NCBI RefSeq assembly: GCF_945957525.1
Contig: NZ_CAMFLA010000014.1
Location: 62,001 to 126,000 of the forward strand
Reading direction: 5' to 3'
DNA length: 64,000 nt
Origin: an uncultured Aquitalea sp.
Lineage (GTDB): Bacteria; Pseudomonadota; Gammaproteobacteria; Burkholderiales; Chromobacteriaceae
Position 1 is the first letter of the stretch. Each line of letters starts with the position of its first letter. Shown one piece after another: positions 544-61,898 of the stretch. The translations under genes and the position numbers were made by a program. The notes beneath the pieces were generated by a model. That model saw only the letters and a list, made by a program, of their open reading frames with translations. It ran no database searches and was not told where the DNA came from.

Positions 544-1128
544 TCAGCGTAGCACGCGCCCGGTTGCGAAATCGATGATGGTGGAAGGTTTTCTGCGTTT
601 GCCGATGCGGCCCGGCAAGGTCAGTACCTGGCCGTCGAAGGCCTGGCGGCAGGCCCGCGCCGTTTTCAGCGAGCGCTGGCCGGCCCGGTTGGCCGACGTG
701 GACACCAGGGCGGTGCCCAGCGCCCGGCACAGCGCCGCCGCTTCGCCGTGAGCAGTCACCCGCACGGCGATCTTGTCGTGGCGGCCGCGCAAGGCGGGCG
801 GCACGCGACGCGAGGCCGGCAGCAGAAAGGTGTAGGGACCGGGCCAGTAGCGCGCAAGTTCCGCTTTCTGCGCGGCGGACAACGGCCGGATCAGATGACG
901 GATCTGCCCGATGTCGGCGGCAATCACGATCAGCCCCTTGTGATTGGGCCTGGCCTTGATGGCCAGCACGCGGCGAATGGCGCGCACATCGGTGGGCAGG
1001 CAGCCCAGTCCGAAGCAGGATTCGGTGGCATACGCCAGCACGCCGCCAGCACGCAACCGGCCGCGGGCCTGCCGGACCAGACCGACCTTCGGCAAACGGC
1101 GGGGGGACAACAGCGACGGCTTGGACAT
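544..1128 (-). CDS. tsaC: L-threonylcarbamoyladenylate synthase TsaC (Sua5/YciO/YrdC family)
   Basis: At 194 residues this matches the short TsaC form rather than the longer Sua5. TsaC makes threonylcarbamoyl-AMP from threonine, bicarbonate and ATP, the first step of t6A37 modification of ANN-decoding tRNAs. Visible family motifs are YATESCFGLG near residue 33, KARPNHKGLIVI near 58-70 and STSANRAG near 143. The gene lies just upstream of tolQ on the same strand and may be cotranscribed with it. A copy of the CTTCGGCMAACC word lies inside it at 1088-1097, where the complementary strand encodes RLPK. Confidence 0.9.
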   Translation of the reverse strand: MSKPSLLSPRRLPKVGLVRQARGRLRAGGVLAYATESCFGLGCLPTDVRAIRRVLAIKARPNHKGLIVIAADIGQIRHLIRPLSAAQKAELARYWPGPYTFLLPASRRVPPALRGRHDKIAVRVTAHGEAAALCRALGTALVSTSANRAGQRSLKTARACRQAFDGQVLTLPGRIGKRRKPSTIIDFATGRVLR

Positions 1129-1214
1129 CTCGATGGGCGGAGGAACGGCGAAAAACCGCTATTGTAGCGGCTGCCGGGCCATAACCGGAACTGCCGCGTC
1201 GTTTTGACTCGCGG

Positions 1215-1946
1215 TTAATCCTTCATATTGAGATAGCGGGCAACGATGCGCGCCATGGCGCCATCTTTCTGCATGCCGCGCAGCTGCTCGTTGAGTTGAT
1301 GCACTTGCGCGTCCGCCATGCCCACATTGCAGGCCAGATACATGAAGGTGGTGTTGAAAGTGAGCACCGGCTTGAGTTGGCTGGCGTGCTCGCGCGCCAC
1401 CAAATAAGCGCCCAGATATTTGCCGGTGGCCCAGAAGTCGATGCGACCGGCCAAGAGCTTGCGCACGTTTTGCTGGTCGGTACTGGCCAGATCCACATCA
1501 AAGCCTCGGTCTATCAAGTACTGGGACACCGCATCGCCGCTATAGCCGCCCAGGCGGTAAGGCCGCACTTCCTCCAGCGCCAGCACATTGTGACTGTTGT
1601 CGGCCCGGGCGTAGAGCACCCAGGGGTTTTCCACCAGCGGGCCTATCCATTTGAGCTGATGTTCCCGCGCGTCGGTGCGGGTGGTGGAGTAAACACAGGT
1701 ATTGGCGTCCAGCACGGCGGAATTGAAGGCGCGAATCCACGGCATGAGTTCGATGGTGTAACTGACGCCGGCGCGCTTGAGCAGCTCCTGCACGATTTCG
1801 GTGGACAGGCCGGAAACCTTGCCATTGCCGGCGGGCATGTTGAAGGGCGGATAGTCTTCAGTGAGCAAGCGCAGGCCGGCGGCCTCGACGGCCGCGGCGG
1901 ACAGGAAACAACTCAGCGCAATGCCGGCGATAAGGCGAATGGTCAT
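1215..1946 (-). CDS. Periplasmic solute-binding protein, family 3 (amino-acid type)
   Basis: A 243-residue secreted protein. The signal peptide has a hydrophobic core at residues 4-20 and is probably cleaved after AVEA. The mature start, GLRLLTEDYPPFNM, is the usual opening of family-3 extracellular binding proteins, followed by GLSTEIVQELLKRAG. The start at 1946 has an AAGGGG ribosome-binding site. No ABC permease or ATPase gene is adjacent, so it is an orphan binding protein. It could serve a distant transporter or a sensor, and the ligand cannot be told from sequence. Similar orphan proteins are common in Chromobacterium and Pseudomonas. Confidence 0.8.
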   Translation of the reverse strand: MTIRLIAGIALSCFLSAAAVEAAGLRLLTEDYPPFNMPAGNGKVSGLSTEIVQELLKRAGVSYTIELMPWIRAFNSAVLDANTCVYSTTRTDAREHQLKWIGPLVENPWVLYARADNSHNVLALEEVRPYRLGGYSGDAVSQYLIDRGFDVDLASTDQQNVRKLLAGRIDFWATGKYLGAYLVAREHASQLKPVLTFNTTFMYLACNVGMADAQVHQLNEQLRGMQKDGAMARIVARYLNMKD

Positions 1947-2015
1947 GTCGGCGCCCCTTCTGGTCAGACTGTTTATCCAGTGTAGTCGACCGGCCAGACA
2001 TGCAAAGCGCGGAAA

Positions 2016-2228
2016 CTAGCGCTGTAGATGATGCAGCGCCTTTGCCCCGGCCTCTCGCGGCGGCACGGCATGCCAGGCGCAGCAGCGGTTCACCGGCGTA
2101 TCGACACCGAACTGGCGGAACCAGTAGGCCACGCGATGCCAGCAGCGGCGTTCGTGACGAAGAAAACGGATCAGCGCGTGCAGCGGGTCGCCGGCATGGG
2201 GAGGCTGCAGAGTGGGCGTGGCGGGCAT
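2016..2228 (-). CDS. Possible small protein of unknown function (about 70 residues)
   Basis: The open frame reads MPATPTLQPPHAGDPLHALI, followed by an Arg/His/Trp-rich stretch (RFLRHERRCWHR) and paired cysteines (NRCCAWH). The ATG at 2228 has AAGGTG six bases upstream, and an in-frame GTG lies at 2237. It is on the same strand as the solute-binding protein, whose start is 70 bases downstream of this stop. I recognise no family. The composition may simply reflect GC-rich noise, so this is a weak call. Confidence 0.35.
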   Translation of the reverse strand: MPATPTLQPPHAGDPLHALIRFLRHERRCWHRVAYWFRQFGVDTPVNRCCAWHAVPPREAGAKALHHLQR

Positions 2229-2330
2229 GGCGATCACCTTGGCGTGATGTTCATGACACCACTGTAGTTGCCGCTGGGTGAAAGTCAGCTAAAAAAAACC
2301 GGTCCGGGCATAAAGATGTCATCAACGTCC

Positions 2331-2376
2331 TTCGGCCAACCCTGGCCTGATGCGCCGGGCGACAAGGTTTGCCGAA
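2331..2376. repeat. Inverted pair of the CTTCGGCMAACC word
   Basis: One copy on the plus strand (2331-2340, TTCGGCCAAC) faces one on the minus strand (2367-2376, TTCGGCAAAC read on that strand), with 26 bases between them. With flanks they read CCTTCGGCCAACC and GGTTTGCCGAAGG, complementary except at the C/A position. They sit beyond the 3' end of purD. Confidence 0.7.
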
Positions 2377-2387
2377 GGCGGCAAAAC

Positions 2388-2412
2388 AAAACAGCGCCGC
2401 AAGGGCGCTGTT
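2388..2412 (-). terminator. Rho-independent terminator of purD
   Basis: Read on the minus strand, the stem CAGCGCC/GGCGCTG (2392-2398 with 2404-2410) is followed by a T-rich tail, TTTTGTTTTG. It lies about 25 bases after the purD stop. Confidence 0.8.
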
Positions 2413-2436
2413 TGCAAGGCGGGGAAACGGCCGGAC

Positions 2437-3711
2437 TCAACGGCGGTTGATCGCCTTGTTGCCGATGTCCCGACGATACTGGCAGCCGTCGAAACGGATG
2501 CCTTCGGCCACGGCATAGGCCTTGGCTTGCGCCATCTTGACGCTGTCGCCCAGCCCCACCACGCACAGCACGCGGCCGCCACTGGTGAGCACCTGCTTAT
2601 CGTCGCCAAGGCTGGCGCCGGCGTGGAATACCATGCTGTCAGCGGTTTCCGCCGGCAGGCCGGTAATCACATCGCCCTTGCGCGGCGCATCCGGGTAGCC
2701 GGCGGCGGCCAGCACCACGCCCAAGGCCACGCGACGGTCCCAATCGGCTTCCGCATCACCCAGCTTGCCGTTGACGCCGGCTTCCAGCAGCACGGTGAAG
2801 TCGGACTTCAGGCGCGCCATGATGGGCTGGGTTTCCGGGTCGCCGAAGCGGCAGTTGAATTCGATGGTGAACGGGTTGCCGTCCTTGTCGATCATCAGGC
2901 CTGCGTAAAGGAAACCGGTATAAGCGTGGCCGTCCTTCTTCATGCCCTGCACGGTGGGCATGATGATTTCGCGCATCACGCGGTTGTGCACTTGCGGCGT
3001 CACCACCGGCGCCGGGCTGTAGGCGCCCATGCCGCCGGTATTGGGGCCCTTGTCGTCGTCCAGCAGGCGTTTGTGATCCTGGCTGGTGGCCATCGGCAGC
3101 ACGTTGTCGCCATCCACCATGACAATGAAACTAGCCTCTTCGCCTTCTAGGAAGTCCTCGATCACCACGCGCGCGCCGGCGCTGCCCATCTTGTTGCCCA
3201 CCAGCATGTCGTCGATGGCGGCATGCGCCTCATCCAGCGTCAGCGCCACCACCACGCCCTTGCCAGCGGCGAGACCGTCGGCCTTGATGACGATGGGCGC
3301 ACCCTTGCCGTCCACATAAGCGTGAGCGGCCGCAGCGTCGGTAAAGGTTTCATAGCCGGCGGTGGGAATGCCGTGACGCTTCATGAAGGCCTTGGCGAAG
3401 TCTTTGGAGCTTTCCAGCTGCGCGCAGTATTGCGTGGGGCCGAAAATCTTCAGACCGGCGGCGCGAAAAGCGTCCACCACGCCGGCGGCCAGCGGGGCCT
3501 CCGGGCCCACCACGGTCAGTTGCACGCCTTCGCGCTGGGCGAACGCCACCAGCTCGGCATTGCCGGATACGTCCACATTGGTGAGATTCGGGTCCAGCGC
3601 CGTGCCGGCGTTGCCGGGCGCGACAAACACTTTGGACACGCGAGCGGACTTGGCGATGCGCCAGGCCAGCGCGTGTTCGCGGCCGCCGGAGCCGATAACC
3701 AGAACTTTCAT
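2437..3711 (-). CDS. purD: Phosphoribosylamine-glycine ligase (GAR synthetase)
   Basis: Catalyses the ATP-dependent second step of de novo purine synthesis, phosphoribosylamine plus glycine to GAR. At 424 residues it has the normal family length. The N-terminal Rossmann-like motif MKVLVIGSGGREHALAW, the ATP-grasp stretch SQDHKRLLDDDKGPNTGGMG near residues 210-230 and FNCRFGDPETQ near 288 are all present. The ATG at 3711 has an AGGAAGGA ribosome-binding site. Together with purH upstream it supplies two pathway enzymes. A hypothetical membrane protein gene and two stem-loops separate the pair. Confidence 0.97.
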   Translation of the reverse strand: MKVLVIGSGGREHALAWRIAKSARVSKVFVAPGNAGTALDPNLTNVDVSGNAELVAFAQREGVQLTVVGPEAPLAAGVVDAFRAAGLKIFGPTQYCAQLESSKDFAKAFMKRHGIPTAGYETFTDAAAAHAYVDGKGAPIVIKADGLAAGKGVVVALTLDEAHAAIDDMLVGNKMGSAGARVVIEDFLEGEEASFIVMVDGDNVLPMATSQDHKRLLDDDKGPNTGGMGAYSPAPVVTPQVHNRVMREIIMPTVQGMKKDGHAYTGFLYAGLMIDKDGNPFTIEFNCRFGDPETQPIMARLKSDFTVLLEAGVNGKLGDAEADWDRRVALGVVLAAAGYPDAPRKGDVITGLPAETADSMVFHAGASLGDDKQVLTSGGRVLCVVGLGDSVKMAQAKAYAVAEGIRFDGCQYRRDIGNKAINRR

Positions 3712-3731
3712 CTTGTCGATCCTTCCTGAAT

Positions 3732-3778
3732 GGACAGCCTGGGCTGTCCGGTATGGGCGGGCCGTCGCGACGGCCCGC
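3732..3778. other. Two intercistronic stem-loops upstream of purD
   Basis: Two perfect inverted repeats lie in the 67-base gap before purD: GGACAGC/GCTGTCC (3732-3749) and an 11-base arm palindrome GCGGGCCGTCG/CGACGGCCCGC (3757-3778). Neither has a T-tail on the minus strand, so they look like RNA structures for partial termination or message processing rather than strong terminators. Confidence 0.5.
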
Positions 3779-4606: not shown

Positions 4607-4661
4607 GTTTGCTCACGCGCCGAGCGGCCTGCCTTCGCAAGCCGCGCGGCGAGATGCGCTA

Positions 4662-6239: not shown

Positions 6240-6327
6240 GTTTCTCTACCGTGTTGTCTATAGATGGATGGAAAACGGTATGCCCCGCCGGGGTCGGCCG
6301 GCCGGGGCGCGCGGCGAGCGCGCAAAA

Positions 6328-6363: not shown

Positions 6364-6367
6364 ATCT

Positions 6368-6681: not shown

Positions 6682-7710
6682 TCAAACGGCCTCCGCCGCC
6701 TCGTCCAGCCCCAGGCTGTCTTCGTACACCAGTCTCTCGGAAAACTGGCCCAGCCTGTCGAAATACTCCCCCACTGCCCGGCGTTGCGCGCCGGTGTCCT
6801 CCAGCTGATACATGGCTTGGCGAAAGACATTGCCGTCCCGCAGCCCTTTTGTATACCAGGCGATGTGCTTGCGGGCGATGCGGCAGCCCGAGTACTCGCC
6901 GTAAAAACCGTACAGATCATCCAGATGCTCCAGCATCACCTGGCGGATTTCCGCCACCGACGGCGGCGGCAACAGCTCGCCGGTGTCGAGGTAGTGCTGG
7001 ATCTCGCGAAAGATCCACGGCCTGCCCTGCGCCGCGCGGCCTATCATCACCGCGTCCGCGCCGGTGTGCTCCAGCACGTGCTCGGCCTTTTGCGGGCTGT
7101 CGATGTCGCCGTTGGCAATCAACGGAATGCTGATGGCCTGTTTCACCGCGCGCAGGGTGTCGTACTCCGCCTCGCCGCGATAAAGGTCTTCGCGGGTACG
7201 GCCATGCAAGGCCAGGGCCGCGATCCCGCAGTCTTCGGCCAACCTGGCCACGCGCAAGGCGTTGCGGTGTTCTCGACTCCAGCCGGTGCGGGTTTTCAGC
7301 GTTACCGGCACATCCACCGCCTTGACCACGGCCTCCAGAATGCGTCCCACCAGCGCTTCGTCGCGCAACAGGGCGGAACCGGCGGCCACATTGCACACCT
7401 TTTTGGCCGGACAACCCATGTTGATGTCGATGATCTGCGCGCCCTGCTCCACATTGACCCTGGCCGCCTCGGCCATTTGCGCCGGGTCCGATCCGGCGAT
7501 CTGCACCGAAATCGGCTCCACTTCGCCCTCGTGATCGGCGCGGCGCAAAGTCTTGGTGGTATGCCACAAGGCCTTGTTGGCGGTAATCATCTCGGACACG
7601 GCCATGGCGGCGCCCATCTTCTTGCACAGCATGCGGAAGGGTCTGTCCGTCACGCCGGCCATGGGCGCCACTATCAGCCGGTTTTTCAGGGTATAAGGAC
7701 CGATTCGCAT
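6682..7710 (-). CDS. dusB: tRNA-dihydrouridine synthase B
   Basis: An FMN- and NADPH-dependent enzyme that reduces a uridine in the D-loop of tRNAs. It has 342 residues. Family marks are APMAGVTDRPFR at the N-terminus, the catalytic cysteine in NMGCPAKKVCNV near residue 100, KTRTGW near 143, and NGDIDSP and GRAAQGRPWIF in the barrel's C-terminal half. It lies upstream of fis with a 53-base gap and probably leads that operon. A copy of CTTCGGCMAACC at 7234-7243 encodes LAED on the gene strand with a TTG leucine codon. Confidence 0.95.
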   Translation of the reverse strand: MRIGPYTLKNRLIVAPMAGVTDRPFRMLCKKMGAAMAVSEMITANKALWHTTKTLRRADHEGEVEPISVQIAGSDPAQMAEAARVNVEQGAQIIDINMGCPAKKVCNVAAGSALLRDEALVGRILEAVVKAVDVPVTLKTRTGWSREHRNALRVARLAEDCGIAALALHGRTREDLYRGEAEYDTLRAVKQAISIPLIANGDIDSPQKAEHVLEHTGADAVMIGRAAQGRPWIFREIQHYLDTGELLPPPSVAEIRQVMLEHLDDLYGFYGEYSGCRIARKHIAWYTKGLRDGNVFRQAMYQLEDTGAQRRAVGEYFDRLGQFSERLVYEDSLGLDEAAEAV

Positions 7711-7856
7711 CCGCTTTTCAGGGTCAAACGTACAGAAGGGCGGCCATTGTAATGCTTTTTTTTTGAGCAGTAAAAATCTTTTTGCTTATTTTTTGAGCAG
7801 GCTCGATAGCCGTAGGAAATCGGGGAAACATCTTCTTGAAACTGCTGGCGGGAATT
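7711..7856 (-). promoter_or_regulatory. AT-rich leader/promoter region of dusB-fis
   Basis: The 146 bases between rnpB and dusB contain several T- and A-tracts (around 7757-7798), in sharp contrast to the GC-rich surroundings. They probably hold the promoter of the dusB-fis operon and the end of the rnpB transcript. I cannot pick a convincing -35/-10 pair. Confidence 0.4.
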
Positions 7857-8236
7857 GGAAGTCAGCCGATAAGCCGGGTTCTGTCGTTGGACAGTCATTC
7901 CTCTAGGCCTGCCGTTGCCGGCAGGCTCAAGCAACCTACCCGGGGACAACGCGAGCCACGTTAGCGCCCCCCTATTTGGTCTTGCTCCTGATGGGGTTTA
8001 GCCTGCCGTCCGTGTTGCCACGTCCGCGGTGCGCTCTTACCGCACCTTTTCACCCTTGCCTGATCCGTCCGTCCGTCTTGCGACAGGCGGCGCGGCCATC
8101 GGCGGTTCAGCTCTCTGTTCCACTTTCCGTCGCCTCACGGCGCCCGGCCGTTAGCCGGCATCATGCTCTGCGGAGCCCGGACTTTCCTCCCCATTGCCCC
8201 TTGCGAGGCTTTGCGGCGACTGTCTGGCTGACTTCC
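7857..8236 (-). ncRNA. rnpB: RNase P RNA (M1, bacterial type A)
   Basis: Catalytic RNA that trims the 5' leader of pre-tRNAs. On the minus strand the 5' end GGAAGUCAGCC pairs with the 3' end GGCUGACUUCC to form helix P1. The conserved start CAGACAGUCGCCGCAAAGCC, the GAGGAAAGUCCGGGCUCC segment and the closing AACCCGGCUUAUCGG (pairing with tRNA CCA) are all readable. The length of about 380 nt fits. A TAGAAT -10 element lies about eight bases before the 5' end (8244-8249 on the plus strand). Open frames across this region are accidental. Confidence 0.97.
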
Positions 8237-11958: not shown

Positions 11959-14900
11959 CTAGTCAAAACGCAAGGTGTAGCGCGATTCCACCGAGGTATT
12001 GGTGCCGGCCCGCACCACCATCGACCAGTTTCGCGTCAGCTGATAAGCCAGCTTCACCGCCTGATCGGCGCTGGTGACGCCGTACTCGTAGCCCAGATAC
12101 AGCTCGCGCGTCAGCTGACGGCCCACCGTCACCACCTGCTCCGCCGGACTCACCGAACCGTCCGCCAGCGTTTTTTCCTTGCGGCTGGTCAGGCCCAGAT
12201 CATCAAAGAAACCCACCTGATCGTTGATGGAACCCGCTAGCATCAAGCCGGCAGCGGCGGCCAGCGCGTTGTCGTCGCGATCGCTGCTGGCGGCGTGCCC
12301 CAGCACCAGCCAGGCCAGCTTGTCCTTCTCCGACATCGACTCGTCCGCCACCAGCCGGATGCGCGGCGCGCTAGCGCTGCCCGACACTTCCACCCCAGCG
12401 CCCACCGGCGACAAATGGCGCTTGGCCACCACATTGAGCAAGGGGTTGTCCAGCGGGCCGACGAAAGTGATGATGCCCGTCTCGATATCCAGATCCTGGC
12501 CATAGGCCTTGTAACGGCCCCGCACTACCCGCACCTGACCGCGCGCCGCCGGCGGCAGGCCGGGGTTGGCCGATACCTTCACCACGCCGGTGAGGTCCAC
12601 ATCCAGGCCCTGACCGGCAAAGCGGAAGCGGTCGCCCAGGTCCAGATCCAGCGCCACCGTCAGCGGCAGGCTGGAGAAGGCGGAAGGCTCGGGCGGCTGA
12701 CGCCCCTTCACCACCACATCGTCGCCCAGACTTGGCGCGCCGAATTTGGGCAGATCCACCCGCCCCTGATCGGCGCGGATGCGGCCGGTCAGCGAAATTT
12801 TCTTGTCCAGCACCGCCAATTCCGCGCCGCCGGACACCACCAGCTTGCGGTTGGGTTTGTCGAACACGCTGAACTTGTCGAGGTTTACCTTCACATTAAC
12901 GTTGGGGTTGTCGGCCTGCAGATCCAGTGCGCCGGTAGCAGTGACCTCCCCCTTGCCGCCGGCAAAACGCAGGCGCTCCAGAATCAGGCTGCGGCCGGCC
13001 AGCCGCGCCTGCAGCACCCCTTCAGCCAGGCGGATGCCCGTCTTGTGGTCGGCCAGCATCAGATCGCGGCCGACAATCAGTCCGCTGCCCTGCGGCTGGG
13101 CGATCGGCCCGCTAAGCGCCAGGTTGGCCGAAAGCTGTCCGCCCAACTCCAGCGAAGGCGAGGCGAGCTTGGCGATGTCGCCCAGCGAAGGCACCGACAG
13201 CGCGGCGCTGGCCGACAGCGGGGTGCGGCCGTCGATCACCCCGTTGTTCCACGGCAAGCTGCCCTTGCCGTCCAGACGGGCGTAGCGGCTGTCCACCAGC
13301 GTGTCGAACAGCACCTGCCCGCCGTCAAAGCGCAGATTGACGCGCGCCTGCCGCAGGCCCAGCGGGCTGGTGCGGCCGCTGTCGCCCGGGATATTGATGT
13401 CGCCGGCGCTGCGATTGATCAACAGCGAACCTTGCGGGTGCGCGCCGTTGAGGTTGAGATCCCAATTGGCGTCAAATACCAGATTGTGTTCCAGCGGCAG
13501 ACTCACCAGCGGCGCCAGCTCCGCCAGACGGATGCCGTCGGCGCGGCCGCGACTGCTGAGGCTGCCATTGGCCTGACGCACAAACTCGTTCAGGCTGAGG
13601 CTGCCGCCCAGCAAGGCAAGGCGCGTGCTGCCCAGCTTCACGCGCTCCGGGCCGGCCTCCAGCGCCACCGGCGAGAGCAGGCTCAGCCCCGGCTTGCCCG
13701 TCAGCTCCAGCTTCTGCAGCATGCCCTGCCATTGCCCCCCATTGGCCGGCAGGCCGCCACTGGCCAGCAACTGCACGCCATAGGGGTGATCGGCCAGATG
13801 GATGCGGCCATCCAGTTGCAGCTGATGCCGCGCACGGGTGCCGCTGGCCTGGGCTCGCAGCTGATCGGCGACAAAGCCGCCGGCTTGCAGGGCATCAACC
13901 GCCAGCTGCAAACGGAAGGGGCTGGCGGCATCGGCCTGCACATTGCCGTCCAGATTCAAGCTCTGTACCGCCAGATTGCCGGGCAGGCGCAGCCGGCTGG
14001 CCTGCAAACGGGCACTGATCAGCGGCGCTTTGGGCGTACCCGCCAGCTCCACATCCCCCTTGATCAGGCCGGAGAATTCCTTGCCCAGCAAAGCCAGATT
14101 GGGGGCGTCCAGCGTCAGCTTGAGCTTGTCGCCGGGCGCGCCGTAAGCGCCGTTGGCCTGCAGGCGGTTGTCCGCCAGACGCAGGTCGGCCTGCAACTGG
14201 CGCAGCCGCTGCTCTTGCAGATCCAGCGTGGCCTGTCCGGTCAGCGGCGCGCCGGAAAGACGGCTGGGTGCGAACTGCAGCGCCAATTTGCCGGACAGCG
14301 GCTTGGCCAGCTGGCCGCTGGCCTTCAGCGTGGCGTTAAGATCGCCCACTGGCAAAGAGGGCGACACGCGGGACGGGTCCGCCTTACTCAACTTGCCATT
14401 CACTTCGAATTCCTGCTTGCCGGCCAGACCCAGCTTGCCGGTCAGCGACAGGCTACCCGCGCCGGCGCTGAAATCCAACTGGTGCAGCAAGAGGGTTTTG
14501 CCGGCCTTGTCCTGCGCAAAGCCCAATTGGGTAAGCAGCTGCAAGGTACGGCCATACAGCGTGGCCTTGATGTCCGGTCCGGCGGCCGGCCCGGATACGC
14601 GCAAAGTGCCTTTGATGGTGTCGTCCGGCGCGGCGGCGTGCAAAGAGCGCAAGCGCACGCCTTCCAGCAGCGCGGCCAGGTCCAGCGAGCCCGGCTCGGC
14701 CTTGCCGGTGATGTCGATCTGGCCATCGATCAGACGCGTCATCAAGCGGTCCAGATGCAAGCGCTTGTCGTCGGCGCTGAATTCGCCCACCGCCAGCGCT
14801 ATCGGCAACTTGCCGTCGGAGATCAGACCCGGCTCATTGTTGATGAGCGAGACGCCGCCTTTCACGCCCTGACCGGCCTGCGGTTCGGCATGCACGGCAA

Positions 14901-15786
14901 AGCCCAGCCGCGCCTGCGGCCAGCCAGGCATCAGCGCATGCGGGTTGACGCCGCCTACGCGCAGATCAAGCCGGGTGAAACGATTGTAGGGATTGATGGC
15001 GAAGGGTCGCAATTGACCATGCGCCTCGGCGAGTATGCCCTTGCCGTCTGCTTCGCCGTTGATGTCCAGCAGGCTGAGATTGCCGCCCAAGCGAACCGCC
15101 GCCCGCACCGCCACTTGCTCCAGCTCGCCGTTGGCTTTCAGTTCGCCGTGAATATCGAACGGCGCCTTGCCGGCCAGATCCAGGCTTGCCTGGGCATTGC
15201 CCCACGGCGTTTGCAACCGGGCATGCTCCAGTTGGTGACGACCGGTTTCATAGCGATAGGCCAGATCCAGCCCGTAAAAACGCAAATCGGACGGCAACAG
15301 CGTCAGGCTGGCCAGCTTGAGCTGGTCCACTTGCACATTCAGCGGCAACTCCAGCGATTTGGGCGCGCCGGTGGATGGCTTGCTCGGTCCGGGCCGGCTG
15401 CTCATCTTCACATTGCCCACGTCCAGCAAGGCCAGATGCAAGCGCCCGTGCCACAGGGCGGAAGGTTGCCAGTCCAGATGCGCGCGGTCGATGTCCAGAT
15501 CGGTGTCGGCGCTGCGCCAGCGCAGCTCGTGCAAGGTGAAACCCGACCACAGCGTGCCTTCGGCGCGCGCCGACAAGGCCTTGCCGGTAAGCGCGGGCAT
15601 TTGCGTCCACAACCAGGCAAAGCCGCTTTCGCTGCCCGTGAGCCAGCCAAGGGCCGACAGCAGGCCGGCAAACAGGACGGCCATGACCCACAACCAGCGA
15701 CGGCGCGGGCGCGCCGCGGGCGGCGTGGCGGGAGCTTCAGGCGGGTTGGCCGAAGGGGAAGCGGGCAAGTCGGTGTGTTGCGCCAT
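11959..15786 (-). CDS. tamB: Translocation and assembly module subunit TamB
   Basis: A 1275-residue inner-membrane-anchored AsmA-like protein that spans the periplasm as a long beta-groove and works with TamA on outer-membrane proteins and lipid transport. A signal anchor spans about residues 33-53 (WLWVMAVLFAGLLSALGWL). The body is repetitive, and the C-terminal TamB/DUF490 domain ends in a beta strand (SVESRYTLRFD). ATG at 15786 shares its A with the tamA stop (TGATG), showing translational coupling. A longer open frame reaches 15996 but overlaps tamA out of frame, so it is not the start. Two CTTCGGCMAACC copies lie inside (13123, 15745). Confidence 0.93.
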   Translation of the reverse strand: MAQHTDLPASPSANPPEAPATPPAARPRRRWLWVMAVLFAGLLSALGWLTGSESGFAWLWTQMPALTGKALSARAEGTLWSGFTLHELRWRSADTDLDIDRAHLDWQPSALWHGRLHLALLDVGNVKMSSRPGPSKPSTGAPKSLELPLNVQVDQLKLASLTLLPSDLRFYGLDLAYRYETGRHQLEHARLQTPWGNAQASLDLAGKAPFDIHGELKANGELEQVAVRAAVRLGGNLSLLDINGEADGKGILAEAHGQLRPFAINPYNRFTRLDLRVGGVNPHALMPGWPQARLGFAVHAEPQAGQGVKGGVSLINNEPGLISDGKLPIALAVGEFSADDKRLHLDRLMTRLIDGQIDITGKAEPGSLDLAALLEGVRLRSLHAAAPDDTIKGTLRVSGPAAGPDIKATLYGRTLQLLTQLGFAQDKAGKTLLLHQLDFSAGAGSLSLTGKLGLAGKQEFEVNGKLSKADPSRVSPSLPVGDLNATLKASGQLAKPLSGKLALQFAPSRLSGAPLTGQATLDLQEQRLRQLQADLRLADNRLQANGAYGAPGDKLKLTLDAPNLALLGKEFSGLIKGDVELAGTPKAPLISARLQASRLRLPGNLAVQSLNLDGNVQADAASPFRLQLAVDALQAGGFVADQLRAQASGTRARHQLQLDGRIHLADHPYGVQLLASGGLPANGGQWQGMLQKLELTGKPGLSLLSPVALEAGPERVKLGSTRLALLGGSLSLNEFVRQANGSLSSRGRADGIRLAELAPLVSLPLEHNLVFDANWDLNLNGAHPQGSLLINRSAGDINIPGDSGRTSPLGLRQARVNLRFDGGQVLFDTLVDSRYARLDGKGSLPWNNGVIDGRTPLSASAALSVPSLGDIAKLASPSLELGGQLSANLALSGPIAQPQGSGLIVGRDLMLADHKTGIRLAEGVLQARLAGRSLILERLRFAGGKGEVTATGALDLQADNPNVNVKVNLDKFSVFDKPNRKLVVSGGAELAVLDKKISLTGRIRADQGRVDLPKFGAPSLGDDVVVKGRQPPEPSAFSSLPLTVALDLDLGDRFRFAGQGLDVDLTGVVKVSANPGLPPAARGQVRVVRGRYKAYGQDLDIETGIITFVGPLDNPLLNVVAKRHLSPVGAGVEVSGSASAPRIRLVADESMSEKDKLAWLVLGHAASSDRDDNALAAAAGLMLAGSINDQVGFFDDLGLTSRKEKTLADGSVSPAEQVVTVGRQLTRELYLGYEYGVTSADQAVKLAYQLTRNWSMVVRAGTNTSVESRYTLRFD

Positions 15787-17549
15787 CAGAACGCCAGCCC
15801 CAGGCTCATGTTCCAGCGCAGGCGGCCATCTTTCTCCGCCTTGGCGATGTCGAAGGACAGCGGCGCCACCGGGCTGTACCAGCGCGCGCCCAAGCCGTTG
15901 CTGTGCTCCATCTTGTAGGTTTGCCAGCTGTCGGCGGCATTGCCGGCATCGTGGAACAGCGCCACGGCCCAGTCCTTGGCCACCGGAATCTGCCACTCCA
16001 GCGAGACGGTGCCGATCACGCGACCGCCCAGCACGGAACCATTCGGCCCGGGCAAACCCAGGCTCTGGTATTCATAACCGCGCACACTGTTTGCTCCGCC
16101 GGCGCGGAACAGCTGGGAAGTCGGCACATCGTTGCTGTCCTTGGTCCAGACCTGGCCGGCCTCGAAACGGGCGACAAACGTGCCCAGCTTGGGCAGCGGC
16201 GTCCAGTACCCCACCGCGCGGGAATAGGCGCGCACAAACTGGCTGGAGGTCAGCGCCGACCCCAGCGTGGTGGACAAGGTCACATCCAGCAGACGGCCGT
16301 TGCGCGGCCGCATGGTGTCGTCCACCGCGCGCTGGGTCCAGCCGAACACGCCCAGCAAGGCATAGGTGTCATTCTGGATGGTAGAACCGATTTCCTCGCT
16401 CTCGCGAATGAACTCGATGCCGAAACGGGCGTTGATATTGTCGCGCGCACGGATGCGCCAGGCGCCGGCGTCCACCGAGGTGGTCTTGATGCCCTGGATG
16501 TCGGTCTGCTTCCAGCGGGACGTGATGGAATGGGAGTAACCGTCCGCCTGGCGCGGAAAGCCCAGACCGAACGACACGTTCTTGTCGTTCTGTTTCCAGT
16601 CCACCAGCATGGAGCCGGTGAAACCGCGACGGAAAATATTGTAGTGGTCGTAGCCCAGGCGCACGCCGGGGCCATCGGAAGAATCGTACGTCAGGCCCAG
16701 CTCCAGCTTCTGGCGCGGGAATTCGGTCAGGCTGACATCCACCGGCACGCGATTGTCGGCATCCACCCGCGACATATCGGTGCTGACCACCACGCCGGAA
16801 TAATGCACGTCCTGTTCCAGAGCAGACTGATAATCCAGCAGCTTTTTCTGCTGGTAGGGATCGCCTTCCTTGAAGTCCGCCAAGCCCTCCGCCACTTTGG
16901 CCGGATAGCGCTGGTTGCCGGTGATGGACATTTTGCCGAAACGCACCAGCGGGCCGCTGTCCACAACCACCTCCAGCTCGCCCTTGCCGGTTTCCGGGTC
17001 CAGTTTCGCCTGGCTGGAGGTGATGCGCGCCAGTGGAAAACGGTCGGCTGTCAGCACGCGCACCACGGCGCGTTTGCTGGCGTCCCAGTCTGATTGCCGG
17101 TAGGGCGCGCCCATGGGCAGGCTCCAGGCCTCCAGCGCTTCGCCCAGACGGGCCGGGAAGTTGCCTTCCTGTCGGATGGTGCCGTCCAGTTTGATGGTAA
17201 CGTCGTCGATGATGACCGGCTCGCCCGGCTCTACCTTGACGGTGAAGCGCAGCGGAGCGGTTTCGCTGATGCTGATTTTGGGACGGAAGTAGCCCTCGGT
17301 TTCCAGCAGTTTGGCAGCCTCGGCCGGGGTTTCCTTTACCAGAGCGCGCAACTGGTAGTCGTCGATATCGGGATCTTTTTGCGCGGACACCAGCTCGAGG
17401 TTGTTCTTGAGCAGGTCGGCCAGGCCGGAAGGCGCGGCGACGTCCACCTGATAGTCCACCGCCGCCATGGCAGGCGCAGCCGCCAGTAGCGGCAGCAGGG
17501 CAAGGCGAAACGGGGTGGAAGAAGTGGAAATCGGCATGGTCACGGTCAT
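15786..17549 (-). CDS. tamA: Translocation and assembly module outer-membrane protein TamA
   Basis: A 587-residue Omp85-family protein. A signal peptide (cleaved near AMAAVDYQV) is followed by POTRA domains over about residues 35-265 and a 16-strand barrel that ends ...NMSLGLAF, with the terminal phenylalanine expected of BAM substrates. The barrel contains the conserved GGANSVRGYEYQSLG lid-loop motif near residue 490. TamA and TamB form one complex across the envelope, and the genes overlap by one base. ATG at 17549 is used here; ATG at 17537 is also possible because neither has a clear ribosome-binding site. Confidence 0.93.
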   Translation of the reverse strand: MTVTMPISTSSTPFRLALLPLLAAAPAMAAVDYQVDVAAPSGLADLLKNNLELVSAQKDPDIDDYQLRALVKETPAEAAKLLETEGYFRPKISISETAPLRFTVKVEPGEPVIIDDVTIKLDGTIRQEGNFPARLGEALEAWSLPMGAPYRQSDWDASKRAVVRVLTADRFPLARITSSQAKLDPETGKGELEVVVDSGPLVRFGKMSITGNQRYPAKVAEGLADFKEGDPYQQKKLLDYQSALEQDVHYSGVVVSTDMSRVDADNRVPVDVSLTEFPRQKLELGLTYDSSDGPGVRLGYDHYNIFRRGFTGSMLVDWKQNDKNVSFGLGFPRQADGYSHSITSRWKQTDIQGIKTTSVDAGAWRIRARDNINARFGIEFIRESEEIGSTIQNDTYALLGVFGWTQRAVDDTMRPRNGRLLDVTLSTTLGSALTSSQFVRAYSRAVGYWTPLPKLGTFVARFEAGQVWTKDSNDVPTSQLFRAGGANSVRGYEYQSLGLPGPNGSVLGGRVIGTVSLEWQIPVAKDWAVALFHDAGNAADSWQTYKMEHSNGLGARWYSPVAPLSFDIAKAEKDGRLRWNMSLGLAF

Positions 17550-38070: not shown

Positions 38071-39075
38071 TCATGCCGACAACAAGGTTGCCAGCGATCG
38101 GATCGAATGCCAAGGATCGTTGCCGTCCACACCCTTGATTTGCTGGTCGATACGGGCGCACTCCGCCAGCGCGGTCATCAGCTTGCGCGGACCGATGCGG
38201 CGCAATGCCGGCTCCGCCAAGCGTTGCTTGTCGCCCCACAAACGCAGTTCGCGGGCCAGATCGCGCACTTGCCTGCCTTCCTTGAGCCCCTGACGCAAAC
38301 GCAGCAGCATGCGCACGTCTTCGGTAAATGACCACAATACCAGCACCGGCGACTCGCCTTCGGCCAGCAAGCCATCCAGCATGCGCTGCACCCGCGCCGT
38401 ATCGCCGGACAGCCAGGCTTCGGACAAGTGGAAAACATCGAAACGCGCAACATTGGCCACCGCCTCGCGCACTTGCTCCAAGCTGACTTCACCGGGGGGA
38501 TGCAGCAAGGCCAGCTTGTCCACTTCCTGTCGCGCAGCCAGCAGGTTGCCCTCCACCCGGTCGGCAAAGAACTCCAGCGCTTCAGCGGGCAGGCTTTGCC
38601 CCTGCCGCTTCATGCGCCGAGCGATCCAGCCCGGCAACTCTTGCCGGCCCACAGTGCGGGCCTCCACCACCACGGCGGACTTTTCCAGCGCGGAGAACCA
38701 TTTGGACTGCTGTTGCGCGCGCTCCAGCTTGGGCAGGGTAATCAGGGTGACCGTGTCGTCCGGCGGCGCTTCGGCCAACCTTTGCAAGGCCTCGCCGCCC
38801 TCGCTGCCCGGCTTACCGCCGGGAATGCGAATCTCCAGCAGCTTGAGCGAGGCAAACAAGGACACGCTGCTCATGGCGTCGCGCAGCTGCGACCAGTCGA
38901 AGCCGGCCTCCACCGTCAGCACTTCGCGCTCCTGATAGCCCATGTCGCGAGACTGCGCACGAACCAGATCCGCGGCCTCCAGCGCCAGCAACGCCTCATC
39001 GCCGTGAATCACGTACAAGGGCGCGAGGCCGCGCGACAACGCGGCCTCCAGCGCATCAGGGCTGAGTTGCGGCAT
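38071..39075 (-). CDS. holA: DNA polymerase III subunit delta
   Basis: The clamp-loader wrench subunit that opens the beta sliding clamp. 334 residues, normal length. It shows LYVIHGDEALLALEAADLVR near residue 17, LRDAMSSVSLFASLKLLEIR near 61 and the AAA+-like lid with ALEFFADRVEGNLLAARQEVDKLAL in sections near 165. Its start lies inside the end of lptE (20-base overlap), the common lptE-holA pairing. A CTTCGGCMAACC copy at 38770-38779 encodes RLAEA. Confidence 0.95.
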   Translation of the reverse strand: MPQLSPDALEAALSRGLAPLYVIHGDEALLALEAADLVRAQSRDMGYQEREVLTVEAGFDWSQLRDAMSSVSLFASLKLLEIRIPGGKPGSEGGEALQRLAEAPPDDTVTLITLPKLERAQQQSKWFSALEKSAVVVEARTVGRQELPGWIARRMKRQGQSLPAEALEFFADRVEGNLLAARQEVDKLALLHPPGEVSLEQVREAVANVARFDVFHLSEAWLSGDTARVQRMLDGLLAEGESPVLVLWSFTEDVRMLLRLRQGLKEGRQVRDLARELRLWGDKQRLAEPALRRIGPRKLMTALAECARIDQQIKGVDGNDPWHSIRSLATLLSA

Positions 39076-46055: not shown

Positions 46056-46063
46056 CGGAAGAG

Positions 46064-46246
46064 AGACCCCCGCGAGTGTCGTTCTGGCAAAATTCGCTTG
46101 TACCCTGTTTCCAGGGAGGGCCGCCTGCCAGACATTTCGGGCGCGTCCTCGAAGGGACGCGACACGCCCATGTCTAACGCTGGCAGCCAAAAGCGAACGC
46201 ATTGGTACAAAGGAATTGTGTGCCTTCACGAACACCGCAGGGGATA
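46064..46246 (-). ncRNA. ssrS: 6S RNA
   Basis: About 183 nt between zapA and the cyclo-ligase gene. On the minus strand CCCCUGCGGUGUUCGU near the 5' end pairs with ACGACACUCGCGGGG near the 3' end to form the closing stem. UGCCAG/AGACAU with AUGUCUGGCA and a terminal hairpin GGGCG...CGCCC continue the rod. This gives the long interrupted hairpin with central bubble that mimics an open promoter and binds sigma-70 RNA polymerase. The zapA-ssrS-fau neighbourhood is the standard one. Confidence 0.9.
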
Positions 46247-50180: not shown

Positions 50181-50408
50181 GCGAAACACACTCCCTGAAT
50201 GAAAATGATCCGGCGGACGTTGAGTCCACCGTTCAGGAGAGCGAAGAGGAACGGCTTGCGCCACGAAATTCTCAAGGACAACTTGGCCTTGTCAGGCCGG
50301 CAGGTGTCTGTCGGATCGCCTCCCCGCGATACTCCAGCGACGGCCTGCTTTCCAGGCAGGCCCGGGAACCGGCGCAAGTGTGCCGCGCGCCTGCGCGGCC
50401 CTGGCTTT

Positions 50409-50598
50409 GGTTCCATTTGCAGGCCGGTCTCCGGGCTGGGTCTTGCGGGATCGCGCCTTCCCGTTCTTGCGGAACAGTGGCGTGTTGCGACACCTGGGCC
50501 TTGCGGCCAGACCTTACCGTTGCGGGGGCAGCGCCGGCTTTTCACCGGCTTCCCGTTTCATTCCTCGCCTCATGACAACTCATGAAGCGTGGAACACC
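50409..50598 (-). ncRNA. Cobalamin (AdoCbl) riboswitch
   Basis: About 190 nt on the minus strand. Conserved elements in order: P1 start GGUGUUCCA, ACGGGAAGCCGGUG, the B12 box-like GCCCCCGCAACGGUAA, CGCCACUGUUCCGC, GGGAAGGCG, AGCCCGGAGACCGGCC, and UGGAACC closing P1. It controls btuB-cobU-btuF by binding adenosylcobalamin. A 228-nt leader remains between it and the btuB start, enough for an expression platform. Confidence 0.95.
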
Positions 50599-50609
50599 TG
50601 CAGCCGGCG

Positions 50610-50615
50610 ATTATA
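50610..50615 (-). promoter_or_regulatory. -10 element of the btuB riboswitch transcript
   Basis: A perfect TATAAT on the minus strand, 11 bases before the P1 start of the riboswitch. Confidence 0.6.
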
Positions 50616-50795
50616 ACGCATGCGACCGCCGCGCCGCAGAGAAAACCCGCGCCGCGCCAGCACAGTCTTGCAATGCAACGCCGGGCTGTGACTTTGCCGT
50701 CGGCGCAAAATGCACCTGCTCCCGGATTCCGGCTTGCCCCCTCCCCGGCCTTGGCATAGAGTCGCAACCTGACCTCAATCCTTGCCCGCACCCTC

Positions 50796-55072: not shown

Positions 55073-55088
55073 GGGTTCGGCAAACAGC

Positions 55089-58409: not shown

Positions 58410-58435
58410 AACACGGTTGCCTCCCGTGCTCATGA

Positions 58436-59230
58436 CTATCGTCCTTGCCGGCCCTGCTGCAGGTGATGCCACCACCAGCGCCAGCGCAGACGCATGTCGT
58501 ACCACACCGGCCGCAAACCAAGCGTAAACAGCAAGGCCGCCAGCGGCAGCGTGAAGGCGTAGCCCAGATGCTTGAAGCCCAGCGCGCCCACCACGCCGCC
58601 GGCGAAGAAGGACAGCAGAATCATCAGGTAGACGAACAAGCGGTTGCGGTTGGCCTGCACTGCCTTGACGCGCGGATTCTGCCCCCGGTTGAAATAGCTC
58701 ATTTTGGTCAGTTCGATGCCAATGTCAGTGGCGATGCCGGTCATGTGCGTGGAGCGCAGCAAGCCGCCGGACAGCTTGGTCACGATGGTGTTGTGCATGC
58801 CCATGATGAAACACAGCAGCATCACCGTCACCGGCGTAAAAAACCCGCGATGCAGCGACAAGACAGCGCCCAGCAGGCCGAACACCAGCAGCAGGCCGGC
58901 CTCCTCCATCATCGACACGCCATAGCCGCCGCGCAGGCGCTGACGCCGCGCCCACAGGATCAGCCAGGTGGAGTGCATGGCGCCCAGCACAAAACACACC
59001 AGCATCACCAACAGCGACAGCGCCAGCCGCACCTCGCCCAGTGCCAGATGATCCGCCATGCCGGACACGATGCCGGACATGTGCGAGGTGTAACGATGCA
59101 CGGCGAGAAAGCCGCCGGCGTTGAGCGCACCGGCAATGAAGGCCATGGACGCGCCCAGCTGACGCAGGGTGCGATCGTTGAAGCTGCCCCGGTCCAGCAG
59201 GCGGGTGATATTGGATGAGTGGCGCGACAT
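58436..59230 (-). CDS. YoaK-like DUF1275 membrane protein
   Basis: A 264-residue inner-membrane protein with about six helices. FIAGALNAGGFLAVHRYTSH near residue 33, MSGIVSGMADHLALG near 53 and GMHNTIVTKLSGGLLRSTHM near 146 are DUF1275 hallmarks. Transport is assumed for the family but the substrate is unknown. ATG 59230 is chosen over the in-frame TTG at 59242. Confidence 0.88.
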   Translation of the reverse strand: MSRHSSNITRLLDRGSFNDRTLRQLGASMAFIAGALNAGGFLAVHRYTSHMSGIVSGMADHLALGEVRLALSLLVMLVCFVLGAMHSTWLILWARRQRLRGGYGVSMMEEAGLLLVFGLLGAVLSLHRGFFTPVTVMLLCFIMGMHNTIVTKLSGGLLRSTHMTGIATDIGIELTKMSYFNRGQNPRVKAVQANRNRLFVYLMILLSFFAGGVVGALGFKHLGYAFTLPLAALLFTLGLRPVWYDMRLRWRWWWHHLQQGRQGR

Positions 59231-59341
59231 GGGTATCTGCAAAATGGACAGCGGCAGCTCAGGGCTGCCGCTGGGTCATCATCCGTCGCCAGACGGCGTC
59301 AGGCAAGCCCCATCAAGCCGGGGTTTGCCGAAGAACAAGGG

Positions 59342-60223
59342 TTAACGACAGGCTTGCAGCGCAATCCCCGGCGTCAGGCGCCTCTGCAGCGCGCGCAGTT
59401 TGTCGGCCTGCTGCGGGTCCAGCCCCTTGAATGTCAGCAGCGTGGCATTGGACTTCTGCCCCTTCTGTTGCATGGCCGCCTTGTCGAAGCCGGCAGCCTT
59501 GATCTTGGCCACCATGGCCTTGGCGGCGTCTTCCTTGCCAAACAGGCCCAGCGACACGCTGCCCTTGAAGTCTTCATTGCTGACAATGTAATTGTCGAAG
59601 CCCTTGTCTTTCAGCTCGGCGGACAAGGTCTGGGTTTCCGAGCGGGTAGCCAGCGGCGGGTGGTAGACCCAGAACTTGCCATTGCCCTTGGTTTCTCCCT
59701 TGTCGCTTTCCACCAGCTGTTCCGGCTTCAGATGCAGCGAGGGCAAGCCGCCCTTCACCCGCTGCAGCAGATGGCTTTCCAGCGCGCCCCAGTCATAGCA
59801 GGCCAACTCGGGCTTGGCGTCCTGCTTAGTCTCGGCCTTGCCGGCGGGTTTGCTATCCGCTTTGGCGTCCGTCTTGGCCGGCTTTTTGTCGTCGACGGGC
59901 TTTTTCTCGTCTTTCGCCGGCTTGTCTGCCGCCGGTTTATCGGCCTTGGCGGCGGAGGCGGCTTCCGGCTTGATCGCGCCCGCAGCAGAAGCATCCGCCT
60001 TGCCCAGTTCGGCAGCGGTCGGTTTTTCCGTGGCGGGCATGGAAGCGGCAGCCGGGGCGCTGGCCTCCGGCGCCGAGGCCGGCTTCCAGTCGGCCGGCAG
60101 CAGCTTGACCTGATTGGGACTGATTTCCTGCGCATGCGCGTCGCCCACGGGCCGCTGCTTCAAGGAACCGTAGCCCGCCACCAGCAGGTTGAGCACCACC
60201 ACCACTACCAGAAACCACTTCAT
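59342..60223 (-). CDS. SPOR-domain protein downstream of coaX
   Basis: A 293-residue protein with a membrane anchor (residues 3-19), a long Ala/Lys/Pro-rich, low-complexity linker (about 45-140), and a C-terminal SPOR domain (ATRSETQTLSAELKDKGFDN, SLGLFGKEDAAKAMVAKIKA). SPOR domains bind denuded septal peptidoglycan. It overlaps coaX by four bases. The birA-coaX-SPOR order is a known Neisseriales arrangement. Confidence 0.88.
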   Translation of the reverse strand: MKWFLVVVVVLNLLVAGYGSLKQRPVGDAHAQEISPNQVKLLPADWKPASAPEASAPAAASMPATEKPTAAELGKADASAAGAIKPEAASAAKADKPAADKPAKDEKKPVDDKKPAKTDAKADSKPAGKAETKQDAKPELACYDWGALESHLLQRVKGGLPSLHLKPEQLVESDKGETKGNGKFWVYHPPLATRSETQTLSAELKDKGFDNYIVSNEDFKGSVSLGLFGKEDAAKAMVAKIKAAGFDKAAMQQKGQKSNATLLTFKGLDPQQADKLRALQRRLTPGIALQACR

Positions 60224-60936
60224 GTCGACTCTGCCACTCTCAATAGTCCTGTCAGGACCAGATTATCCACGATACGCGCCGGCGCCGCGAGTTGCGGGGC
60301 CAGCAAGGCGGCGTCGCCACCAGTCAGCATCACCTCGGGCAAGGCGCGGCCGGTACGTTCGGCCAACTGTCGCCGCATGTTCTCTATGGCGCCGCATTGC
60401 GCCGCCATCACGCCGCTGGCCAAGGCCGCCTCCGTGCCCTGCGGGAAGTTTTCCAGCTGGCCAGCAGGGCGATCCAGCTGGGCGGTGCCGCGCGCCAGAC
60501 TGCTCAACATCAACTGCCTGCCGGGCAAAATATAACCGCCCAAGTAGTCGCCCTCGGCGGTCAGCGCCTCCACGGTCAGCGCCGTGCCCGCACAGGCCAC
60601 CACCACATCGTCCCGACACAGGCTGCGCGCACCCAGCACCGCCAGCCAGCGGTCGGCCCCCTGCTCGGCGGGGTTACGATAATGATTGCGCACATCGCCA
60701 AATTCGGCCGCGCTGCGCACCCAGCGCCACGGGCAAGCAGCCGCCGCTTGCAAGGCCGCGGTTACTTCCGGCCTGGCCACGCTGGCGCCGGCGGCCCGGG
60801 TCAGCGGCCATGCCGCCCATTGCGGCTTGAGGGCGGCGATATCGGCATGCGCCACCGCGCCCTGCGCCACCCAGTCGCGACCATCGTGCACTGCCCATTT
60901 CACCCGGCTGTTGCCGGCGTCCACCAGCAGTCTCAT
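60220..60936 (-). CDS. coaX: Type III pantothenate kinase
   Basis: A 238-residue ASKHA-fold kinase for the first step of CoA synthesis. LLVDAGNSRVKWAVHDG at the N-terminus, EQGADRWLAVLGARSL near 93 (substrate-binding GADR), and VVACAGTALTVEALTAEGDY near 111 are typical. It overlaps birA and the SPOR gene by four bases each. CTTCGGCMAACC copy at 60358-60367. Confidence 0.95.
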   Translation of the reverse strand: MRLLVDAGNSRVKWAVHDGRDWVAQGAVAHADIAALKPQWAAWPLTRAAGASVARPEVTAALQAAAACPWRWVRSAAEFGDVRNHYRNPAEQGADRWLAVLGARSLCRDDVVVACAGTALTVEALTAEGDYLGGYILPGRQLMLSSLARGTAQLDRPAGQLENFPQGTEAALASGVMAAQCGAIENMRRQLAERTGRALPEVMLTGGDAALLAPQLAAPARIVDNLVLTGLLRVAEST

Positions 60937-61898
60937 GCGCGGCTCCGCAAACTGACTTCACCTACATGGAACACGCGCACGCCGTCGGTGGTTTCTACCA
61001 GCAGCGCGCCGTTTTCCGCCACGCCGCGCGCTACGCCGTCCACCGGCTCGCCATGAGAGAACGACAGCCGCACCGGCGCGTTGTGGTGGCTGGACCAGCG
61101 CATCCACTCCTCCTGAAACGGCGCGAAACCTTCGCGATTGAATTGCTCCAGCACGGCGGCCAGCTCGTTCAGCACCTCCGCCAGCAAGGTGTTTCGGCCA
61201 ACGTGAATGCCCACATCGCTCAGCGCGGCTACGGGTTGATCCACCTCGCCCGGCGCGCTGACATTGAGACCGATGCCGATCACAACAGCCGCCGGGCCCA
61301 GCGCGTCGCCGGACAGTTCGATCAGAATGCCGGCCAGCTTGCGACCGGACAGCAATACATCATTGGGCCACTTCAATTGCACCGGCGCGCCAAGGCGCAG
61401 CATGGCGCGCGCCAGCGCGATGCCCACCACCAGCGACAGGCCGGCCAGCTGCGCCAACCCGCGATCAAAGCGCCACAGCAAAGAGAAGGTCAGCCCCGCG
61501 CCCAGCTTCATTTGCCAGCGCCGCCCCAGCCGCCCCCGGCCTGCGGTCTGCATCTCCGCCGCCAGCACCAGGCCGTGCAAGCCGCCATTGGCGGCGCGGG
61601 CGGTCAGCTGGGTATTGGTGGAATCGGTCCGCTCAGCCACCGCCAGCGTAAAAACGTCCGCCGCGTCCGGCGACAGCGCCTCGCGCACGCGGGCCACATC
61701 CAGCCATTCAAAGGCTTCGGCCAACTTGTAGCCCTGCCCGCGCACGCTGAACACGGTCAGGCCCAGTTCTTCGGTAATAGCGTGCACCGCCTGCCAGACC
61801 AGTGTGCGGGAACAGCCCAACTCGCGCGCCATGTCTTCGCCGGAGTGAAAACGCCCGTCGGTCAGCAGGCGCAGCACGGCAAAAGCGTGCTCGCTCAC
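60933..61898 (-). CDS. birA: Biotin-[acetyl-CoA carboxylase] ligase / biotin repressor
   Basis: A 321-residue bifunctional protein. An N-terminal winged helix (LLTDGRFHSGEDMARELGCS) precedes the ligase domain with TAGRGRLGRRW near residue 118, LKWPNDVLLSGRKLAGILIE near 168 and a C-terminal SH3-like domain. It biotinylates AccB and may repress biotin genes. It overlaps rfaE2 and coaX by four bases each. CTTCGGCMAACC copies at 61193 and 61716. Confidence 0.95.
   Translation of the reverse strand: MSEHAFAVLRLLTDGRFHSGEDMARELGCSRTLVWQAVHAITEELGLTVFSVRGQGYKLAEAFEWLDVARVREALSPDAADVFTLAVAERTDSTNTQLTARAANGGLHGLVLAAEMQTAGRGRLGRRWQMKLGAGLTFSLLWRFDRGLAQLAGLSLVVGIALARAMLRLGAPVQLKWPNDVLLSGRKLAGILIELSGDALGPAAVVIGIGLNVSAPGEVDQPVAALSDVGIHVGRNTLLAEVLNELAAVLEQFNREGFAPFQEEWMRWSSHHNAPVRLSFSHGEPVDGVARGVAENGALLVETTDGVRVFHVGEVSLRSRA

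Follow-up and report, generated by a model that had tools for sequence, protein, structure and literature searches.

DNA uptake sequences (DUS) occur in the Neisseriaceae as a set of dialects with the minor pilin ComP as their receptor (Frye 2013, PMC3630211; Berry 2016, PMC4906244). The eight described dialects all belong to the Neisseriaceae and all carry a CTG core, which is conserved at +6 to +8 of the DUS (PMC3630211; PMC12061091). Published 12-mers are AGGCTGCCTGAA (AG-simDUS), AGGCAGCCTGAA (king) and AAGCAGCCTGCA (AA-king3DUS) (PMC10715097), and further DUS are AGGCTACCTGAA (eik), ATGCCGTCTGAA and AGGCCGTCTGAA (PMC12061091). For the uptake signal sequence (USS) of the Pasteurellaceae, with the core AAGTGCGGT, another minor pilin, ComN/PpdA, has been proposed as the receptor (PMC12616744). 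Here, we describe a dispersed word, TTCGGC(C/A)AAC, in a 64,000-nucleotide stretch of the genome of an uncultured Aquitalea sp. of the Chromobacteriaceae (contig NZ_CAMFLA010000014.1, positions 62,001 to 126,000; hereafter the window). An initial annotation had proposed that this word resembles a DUS and serves to recognise kin DNA in type IV pilus-driven transformation. The abundance of the word, its dialects in related genera, its depletion in a prophage and the presence of a ComP-type pilin support this proposal. We therefore consider the word, which reads AGGTT(G/T)GCCGAAG on the reverse complement with the core GTTKGCCGAA, a candidate DUS of this genome, with a probability of about 0.83.

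Abundance of the word and selection at the DNA level

A search for exact copies on both strands of the window returned all 35 that had been annotated (1088..61725), 23 with C (GTTGGCCGAA) and 12 with A (GTTTGCCGAA). In 100 dinucleotide shuffles the mean was 0.34 and the largest count 3, in agreement with the earlier estimate of well under one copy. Relative to a second-order Markov model, 9-mers of the word headed the list of words in excess in the window, with TCGGCCAAC being observed 26 times where 1.85 were expected, and the commonest 10-mer was TTCGGCCAAC. The analysis was extended to a 464 kb sample, consisting of the window and twenty 20 kb stretches of the same genome (G000). Against the same type of model, GTTGGCCGAA showed the greatest excess of all 10-mers in this sample (155 observed, 3.0 expected), ahead of a frame that overlaps the word and, in third place, of GTTTGCCGAA (68 observed, 1.75 expected). 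The genome as a whole (4.05 Mb) contained 1,984 copies, 1,008 on one strand and 976 on the other, compared with 29 (16 and 13) for the reversed-pattern control; GTTGGCCGAA made up 1,368 of these copies, leaving 616 for GTTTGCCGAA. When synonymous codons were shuffled within 357 crudely called genes, 12.2 copies were obtained on average (standard deviation 3.8, maximum 20, 30 shuffles) versus 164 in the real sequence. This supported the view that the DNA word, and not the protein, is under selection. Counts in the window and the 464 kb sample were far above both the Markov and the codon-usage expectation.

The 464 kb sample held 163 of its 223 copies in called genes and 60 outside, with uncalled DNA representing 22% of the sequence. 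For the window, crude gene calls plus two hand-added genes placed 23 copies inside and 12 outside genes, where 13 spacer copies had been counted previously. When the sample was divided into 92 bins of 5 kb, copies averaged 2.39 per bin with a variance of 1.56 (no formal test), and the five bins with less than 55% GC averaged 0.6 copies. Close neighbours were limited to 6 pairs within 120 bp among the 223 copies, and three of these pairs formed tight hairpins, two of them with a T run. When the strands of 23 stretches (the window, L119-L138, L210 and L211) were distinguished by GC skew, the GTTKGCCGAA form was found 142 times on the G-rich strand versus 96 times on the other, the contigs not being ordered by replichore.

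Contig C4 opens with a Mu-like prophage, in which GemA, Gp27, portal, F, I protein, capsid E and tape measure genes were recognised. The first 35 kb of this contig contained a single copy of the word and the next 25 kb contained 15, while the density of the genome as a whole predicts ∼17 copies for 35 kb and ∼13 for 26.5 kb. Depletion in prophages, which the initial annotation had named as a point to check, was thus apparent in this prophage, a single case that was noticed as the emptiest of the twenty stretches and whose recognised part extends to 26.5 kb, with its right end unmapped. The lone copy sits in a methyl-accepting chemotaxis gene among the Mu-like genes (L125, G000:C4:1-20000, 12246-13502, minus strand), and this gene is perhaps recent host cargo.

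Shape of the word and likeness to known uptake sequences

In the reverse-complement reading, the core offers a choice between G and T at +4. The flanks of the 223 copies favoured A at -2 (0.52), G at -1 (0.46) and G at +11 (0.74), and conservation stopped after ∼13 bases. The flanking C...C in the title of the initial annotation was borne out in part. Other single-letter variants reached 0 to 16 copies each, most of them near the third-order expectation, and a few were mildly in excess, such as GTTTGCCGAT (13 observed, 2.2 expected).

The word was compared with six published DUS dialects at five offsets and in two orientations. AG-simDUS agreed in register with our AGGTTGGCCGAA at 9 of 12 letters, which was equalled by 0.8% of random 12-mers, and differed from it at +2, +5 and +7, the last of these within the core. 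The 10-mer core matched DUS in register at 7 of 10 letters, and 2.9% of random words were as good. Our word and the six dialects have the same letter at three positions (+1, G; +6, C; +8, G), and A/G are favoured at -2/-1. The two systems are further alike in having a 10-12 base word with ∼2,000 copies on both strands, dialects that follow lineages, and a ComP-type pilin. They differ in family, in the core, which is CCG at +6 to +8 in all three dialects of our word (see below) as opposed to CTG, in the G or T at +4, and in the nine congeners without the word. AA-king3DUS shares its C at +9 with one of these dialects, GTTGGCCGCA, whereas most of its inner letters differ. The USS of the Pasteurellaceae shows a genomic distribution of a similar kind with unrelated letters, and its core, for which no separate count was made, was not among the top words listed for the window or the 464 kb sample. 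The initial annotation had named no known uptake word of this sequence, and none appeared among the literature matches listed, but the word does resemble known DUS in its letters and layout.

Distribution and dialects among relatives

Among the PurH matches listed for G000, the nearest named ones came from Pseudogulbenkiania (92%) and Crenobacter (90%), which points to the Chromobacteriaceae or a family close to them. The family set comprised 61 genomes including G000, grouped as g1 to g10, where g1 is its own genus and g7 is probably Chromobacterium. The word was borne by 23 of these genomes in the form of three lineage-bound dialects, which occur in G000 and six other genera. Carriers of GTTKGCCGAA were G000, all three genomes of g2 (1,132, 922 and 205 copies), both genomes of g3 (2,190 and 604), g6 (1,281) and g10 (1,888). 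The dialect GTTGGCCGAG was found in both genomes of g4, and GTTGGCCGCA in all 13 genomes of g5. In G020, 604 copies of GTTKGCCGAA were accompanied by 165 of GTTGGCCGAG, which perhaps reflects mixed dialects or decay. Samples of word-bearing genomes were uneven, with no copy in 20 kb of G026, and none in one 20 kb contig end of G018 as compared to 24 in 40 kb elsewhere.

In the 38 word-less genomes (nine of g1, 19 of g7, six of g8 and four of g9), none of the three dialects exceeded 92 copies. Such counts were often 2-3 times the reversed control and about 5 times in some genomes. In g8, G024 had 87 copies of GTTKGCCGAA versus 16 of the control and 92 of GTTGGCCGAG versus 21, and G033 had 85 of GTTGGCCGAG versus 17. 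It is possible that this small excess represents traces of an old tag. The word was lacking in nine of nine genomes of the same genus, one of which is 61% complete; the eight near-complete congeners held 62 to 90 copies each. A count of GTTGGCCGAA in 300 genomes of the order, with 291 belonging to other families, rose above 47 copies in just two, G000 and G014. The enrichment in relatives that the initial annotation had envisaged was therefore borne out for six other genera of the family, which carry the word or a one-letter dialect, but not for the nine congeners.

Searches for the GAG and GCA dialects covered the family and, via the loose pattern GTTKGCCGMR, six further genomes. In named genomes this pattern showed a modest excess at most over the control, with 372 versus 105 in a Pseudogulbenkiania metagenome-assembled genome (MAG) and 270 versus 131 in Crenobacter. 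None of four aligned copies was kept at orthologous sites in the Pseudogulbenkiania MAG, which is not informative since this MAG is poor in the word. No replacement word stood out in the 12 of 38 word-less genomes that were sampled (31 to 80 kb each), and the same word count applied to 15 kb of Neisseria iguanae found the known DUS at once. As other tags, ATGGTGCCG (G024), CTGGAAACC (G001) and CACCATCACC (G010) were rejected, their copies clustering mostly in one stretch. The local clusters of ATGGTGCCG and CACCATCACC lie in L103 (6078-10401) and L213 (10394-11910), where the underlying genes are probably repetitive.

Among the literature matches listed, neither the word nor a DUS was reported for the Chromobacteriaceae. 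The 2013 survey reported no obvious DUS for five genomes, including two of Chromobacterium and one of Pseudogulbenkiania. Its supplementary Table S1D, on 10-mers that are over-represented in genomes of Chromobacterium, Pseudogulbenkiania, Lutiella and Laribacter, may list the word (PMC3630211).

A ComP-type pilin as candidate receptor

On contig C9, G000 encodes a ComP-type minor pilin with a ComP_DUS domain and a ComP-like pilin fold. ComP proteins were its best matches in the Protein Data Bank (PDB), and it was the best match to ComP in sequence and fold. By these two measures, the C9 pilin is orthologous to the Neisseria DUS receptor. G000 has three more ComP_DUS matches, namely a pilin in the window and one match each on C6 and C12; the PDB comparison covered the C9 and window pilins. 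The window pilin (62494-62892, minus strand), for which none of 17 PDB matches was ComP, was dropped as receptor because it adjoins a gene that we take to be PilY1-like (62907-63998, minus strand) and because its closest minor-pilin match was PilE of P. aeruginosa.

A ComP-type pilin was present in all 23 word-bearing and in 34 of 38 word-less genomes, and missing in the other four word-less ones. The loop motif N[TVA]Dx[GD] was found, post hoc, in 22 of 23 word-bearing and in none of 33 word-less ComPs, the exception being the word-bearing G018. Recognition of the word probably involves, in part, the beta1-beta2 loop of ComP. In word-less genomes, ComP may bind DNA without preference, or it may read a rarer tag that our samples would miss. 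Some genomes, namely G001 (L197), G018 (L181), G003, G004 and G006, encode a further ComP-like pilin whose loop differs, and in a word-less g8 genome the ComP-type gene at G081:C1:465063-465458 has an in-frame TGA.

Positions of the word in the window

The copies found in the window are listed in Table 1. The window also holds genes for RNase P RNA (7854-8235) and 6S RNA (46063-46246) and a cobalamin riboswitch (50405-50616), all on the minus strand.

Table 1. Exact copies of TTCGGC(C/A)AAC in the window, with strand and gene context.
Copy	Position	Strand	Context
GTTTGCCGAA	1088..1097	-	in called gene
GTTGGCCGAA	2331..2340	-	outside called genes; inverted pair with 2367, 36 bp apart
GTTTGCCGAA	2367..2376	+	outside called genes; inverted-pair partner of 2331
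GTTGGCCGAA	7234..7243	-	in dusB-type gene 6682-7710
GTTGGCCGAA	9662..9671	+	in called gene
GTTGGCCGAA	10973..10982	+	in called gene
GTTGGCCGAA	11561..11570	-	outside called genes
GTTGGCCGAA	13123..13132	+	in tamB-like gene 11959-15996
GTTGGCCGAA	15745..15754	+	in tamB-like gene 11959-15996
GTTGGCCGAA	17633..17642	-	outside called genes
GTTGGCCGAA	18551..18560	-	outside called genes
GTTGGCCGAA	22326..22335	-	outside called genes
GTTGGCCGAA	27995..28004	+	in called gene; inverted pair with 28069
GTTTGCCGAA	28069..28078	-	in called gene; inverted-pair partner of 27995
GTTGGCCGAA	30922..30931	-	in called gene
GTTGGCCGAA	33686..33695	-	outside called genes
GTTGGCCGAA	34296..34305	-	outside called genes
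GTTGGCCGAA	34639..34648	+	in called gene
GTTTGCCGAA	36081..36090	+	outside called genes
GTTGGCCGAA	38770..38779	-	in holA-type gene 38071-39075
GTTTGCCGAA	41249..41258	-	in called gene
GTTTGCCGAA	43515..43524	-	in called gene
GTTTGCCGAA	47924..47933	-	in called gene
GTTTGCCGAA	48110..48119	-	in called gene
GTTGGCCGAA	48581..48590	+	in called gene
GTTGGCCGAA	51182..51191	-	in called gene
GTTTGCCGAA	51803..51812	+	in called gene
GTTGGCCGAA	53193..53202	-	outside called genes
GTTTGCCGAA	55076..55085	-	outside called genes
GTTTGCCGAA	56236..56245	+	in called gene
GTTGGCCGAA	58328..58337	-	in called gene
GTTTGCCGAA	59323..59332	+	outside called genes
GTTGGCCGAA	60358..60367	-	in called gene
GTTGGCCGAA	61193..61202	-	in called gene
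GTTGGCCGAA	61716..61725	-	in called gene

Discussion

Several observations weigh against a function of the word as a DUS. It lacks the CTG core, described as essential in published work, and its likeness to known DUS, as judged from the letters, is moderate. Spacer enrichment is weak at best, since the gene caller misses some real genes; signs that the inverted pairs serve as terminators are likewise weak, and the mild 60:40 strand bias is left without explanation. As to the receptor, the ComP-type pilins in word-less genomes mean that ComP alone is no predictor of the word. In 56 of 56 ComPs of the family, beta1 is devoid of the cysteine that belongs to the DD region, and only the C-terminal cysteine pair is present. 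In Neisseria ComP, the DD region is held by two disulfides (four cysteines), whereas the family ComPs lack the second disulfide and, with no beta1 cysteine, have no DD region. The loop motif was picked with the alignment already in view, and just two changes of the word-less label suffice for the tree. Lastly, the word-bearing drafts G088 and G089 gave no match to ComEC.

The word could be a genuine uptake word with a different receptor, for example another minor pilin, in which case the ComP-type pilin would do something else. This would fit the persistence of such pilins in word-less genomes, the word-bearing G018 without the loop motif, and the additional ComP_DUS matches in G000, two of which (C6 and C12) lie outside the PDB comparison. 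However, it is the C9 pilin that best matches ComP, the window pilin is closest to PilE, and a ComP-type match accompanies the word without exception and is missing only from word-less genomes; we consider another receptor unlikely. A word for chromosome maintenance, be it a Chi, FtsK-orienting polar sequence (KOPS), SlmA/Noc-type or nucleoid-protein site, could also be dispersed, numerous, almost lacking in a prophage and mildly biased between strands. Yet such sites are not expected to change between genera or to vanish from congeners, as this word does. The word is moreover not palindromic, resembles DUS, and is nearly equal on both strands genome-wide, on contigs not ordered by replichore, which leaves a maintenance function very improbable.

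Even less can be said for a remnant of a mobile repeat (repetitive extragenic palindrome, REP; miniature inverted-repeat transposable element, MITE) or for transcription terminators. A few inverted pairs do fold into hairpins, and two of these carry a T run, but the motif is short and sharp without conservation past ∼13 bases, close pairs are few, and most copies in the sample and in the window reside inside called genes. An artefact of codon usage or base composition might be suspected from the Leu-Ala-Glu type stretches that carry copies according to the initial annotation. This explanation is refuted by the synonymous shuffles, and the reversed control and the low counts in near-complete congeners likewise speak against it.

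If the word is indeed a DUS, the minor pilin ComP in the type IV pilus would bind it on free DNA, pilus retraction and ComEC would bring the word-bearing DNA in, and the incoming DNA would be recombined, with a preference for word-bearing, that is kin, DNA. Biased uptake together with recombination would cause the word to accumulate. With neither the CTG core nor the DD region present, we file this system apart from the Neisseriaceae DUS dialects; it is probably a CTG-less branch of uptake sequences that is homologous to DUS. Tentatively, ComP-borne tagged uptake may predate the split between the Neisseriaceae and this family, in which case CTG core and DD region alike would be late traits of the Neisseriaceae and specificity would reside largely in the beta1-beta2 loop. 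Entire genera, apparently including Chromobacterium, would then have lost the tag and kept the receptor, and G000 would be a lone keeper or regainer in a tag-less genus. With its three dialects, its diverged ComP and its tag-less close relatives, a second clade of this kind would represent a natural experiment on the co-evolution of tag and receptor, in which it becomes directly testable how self-preferring transformation arose and was lost.

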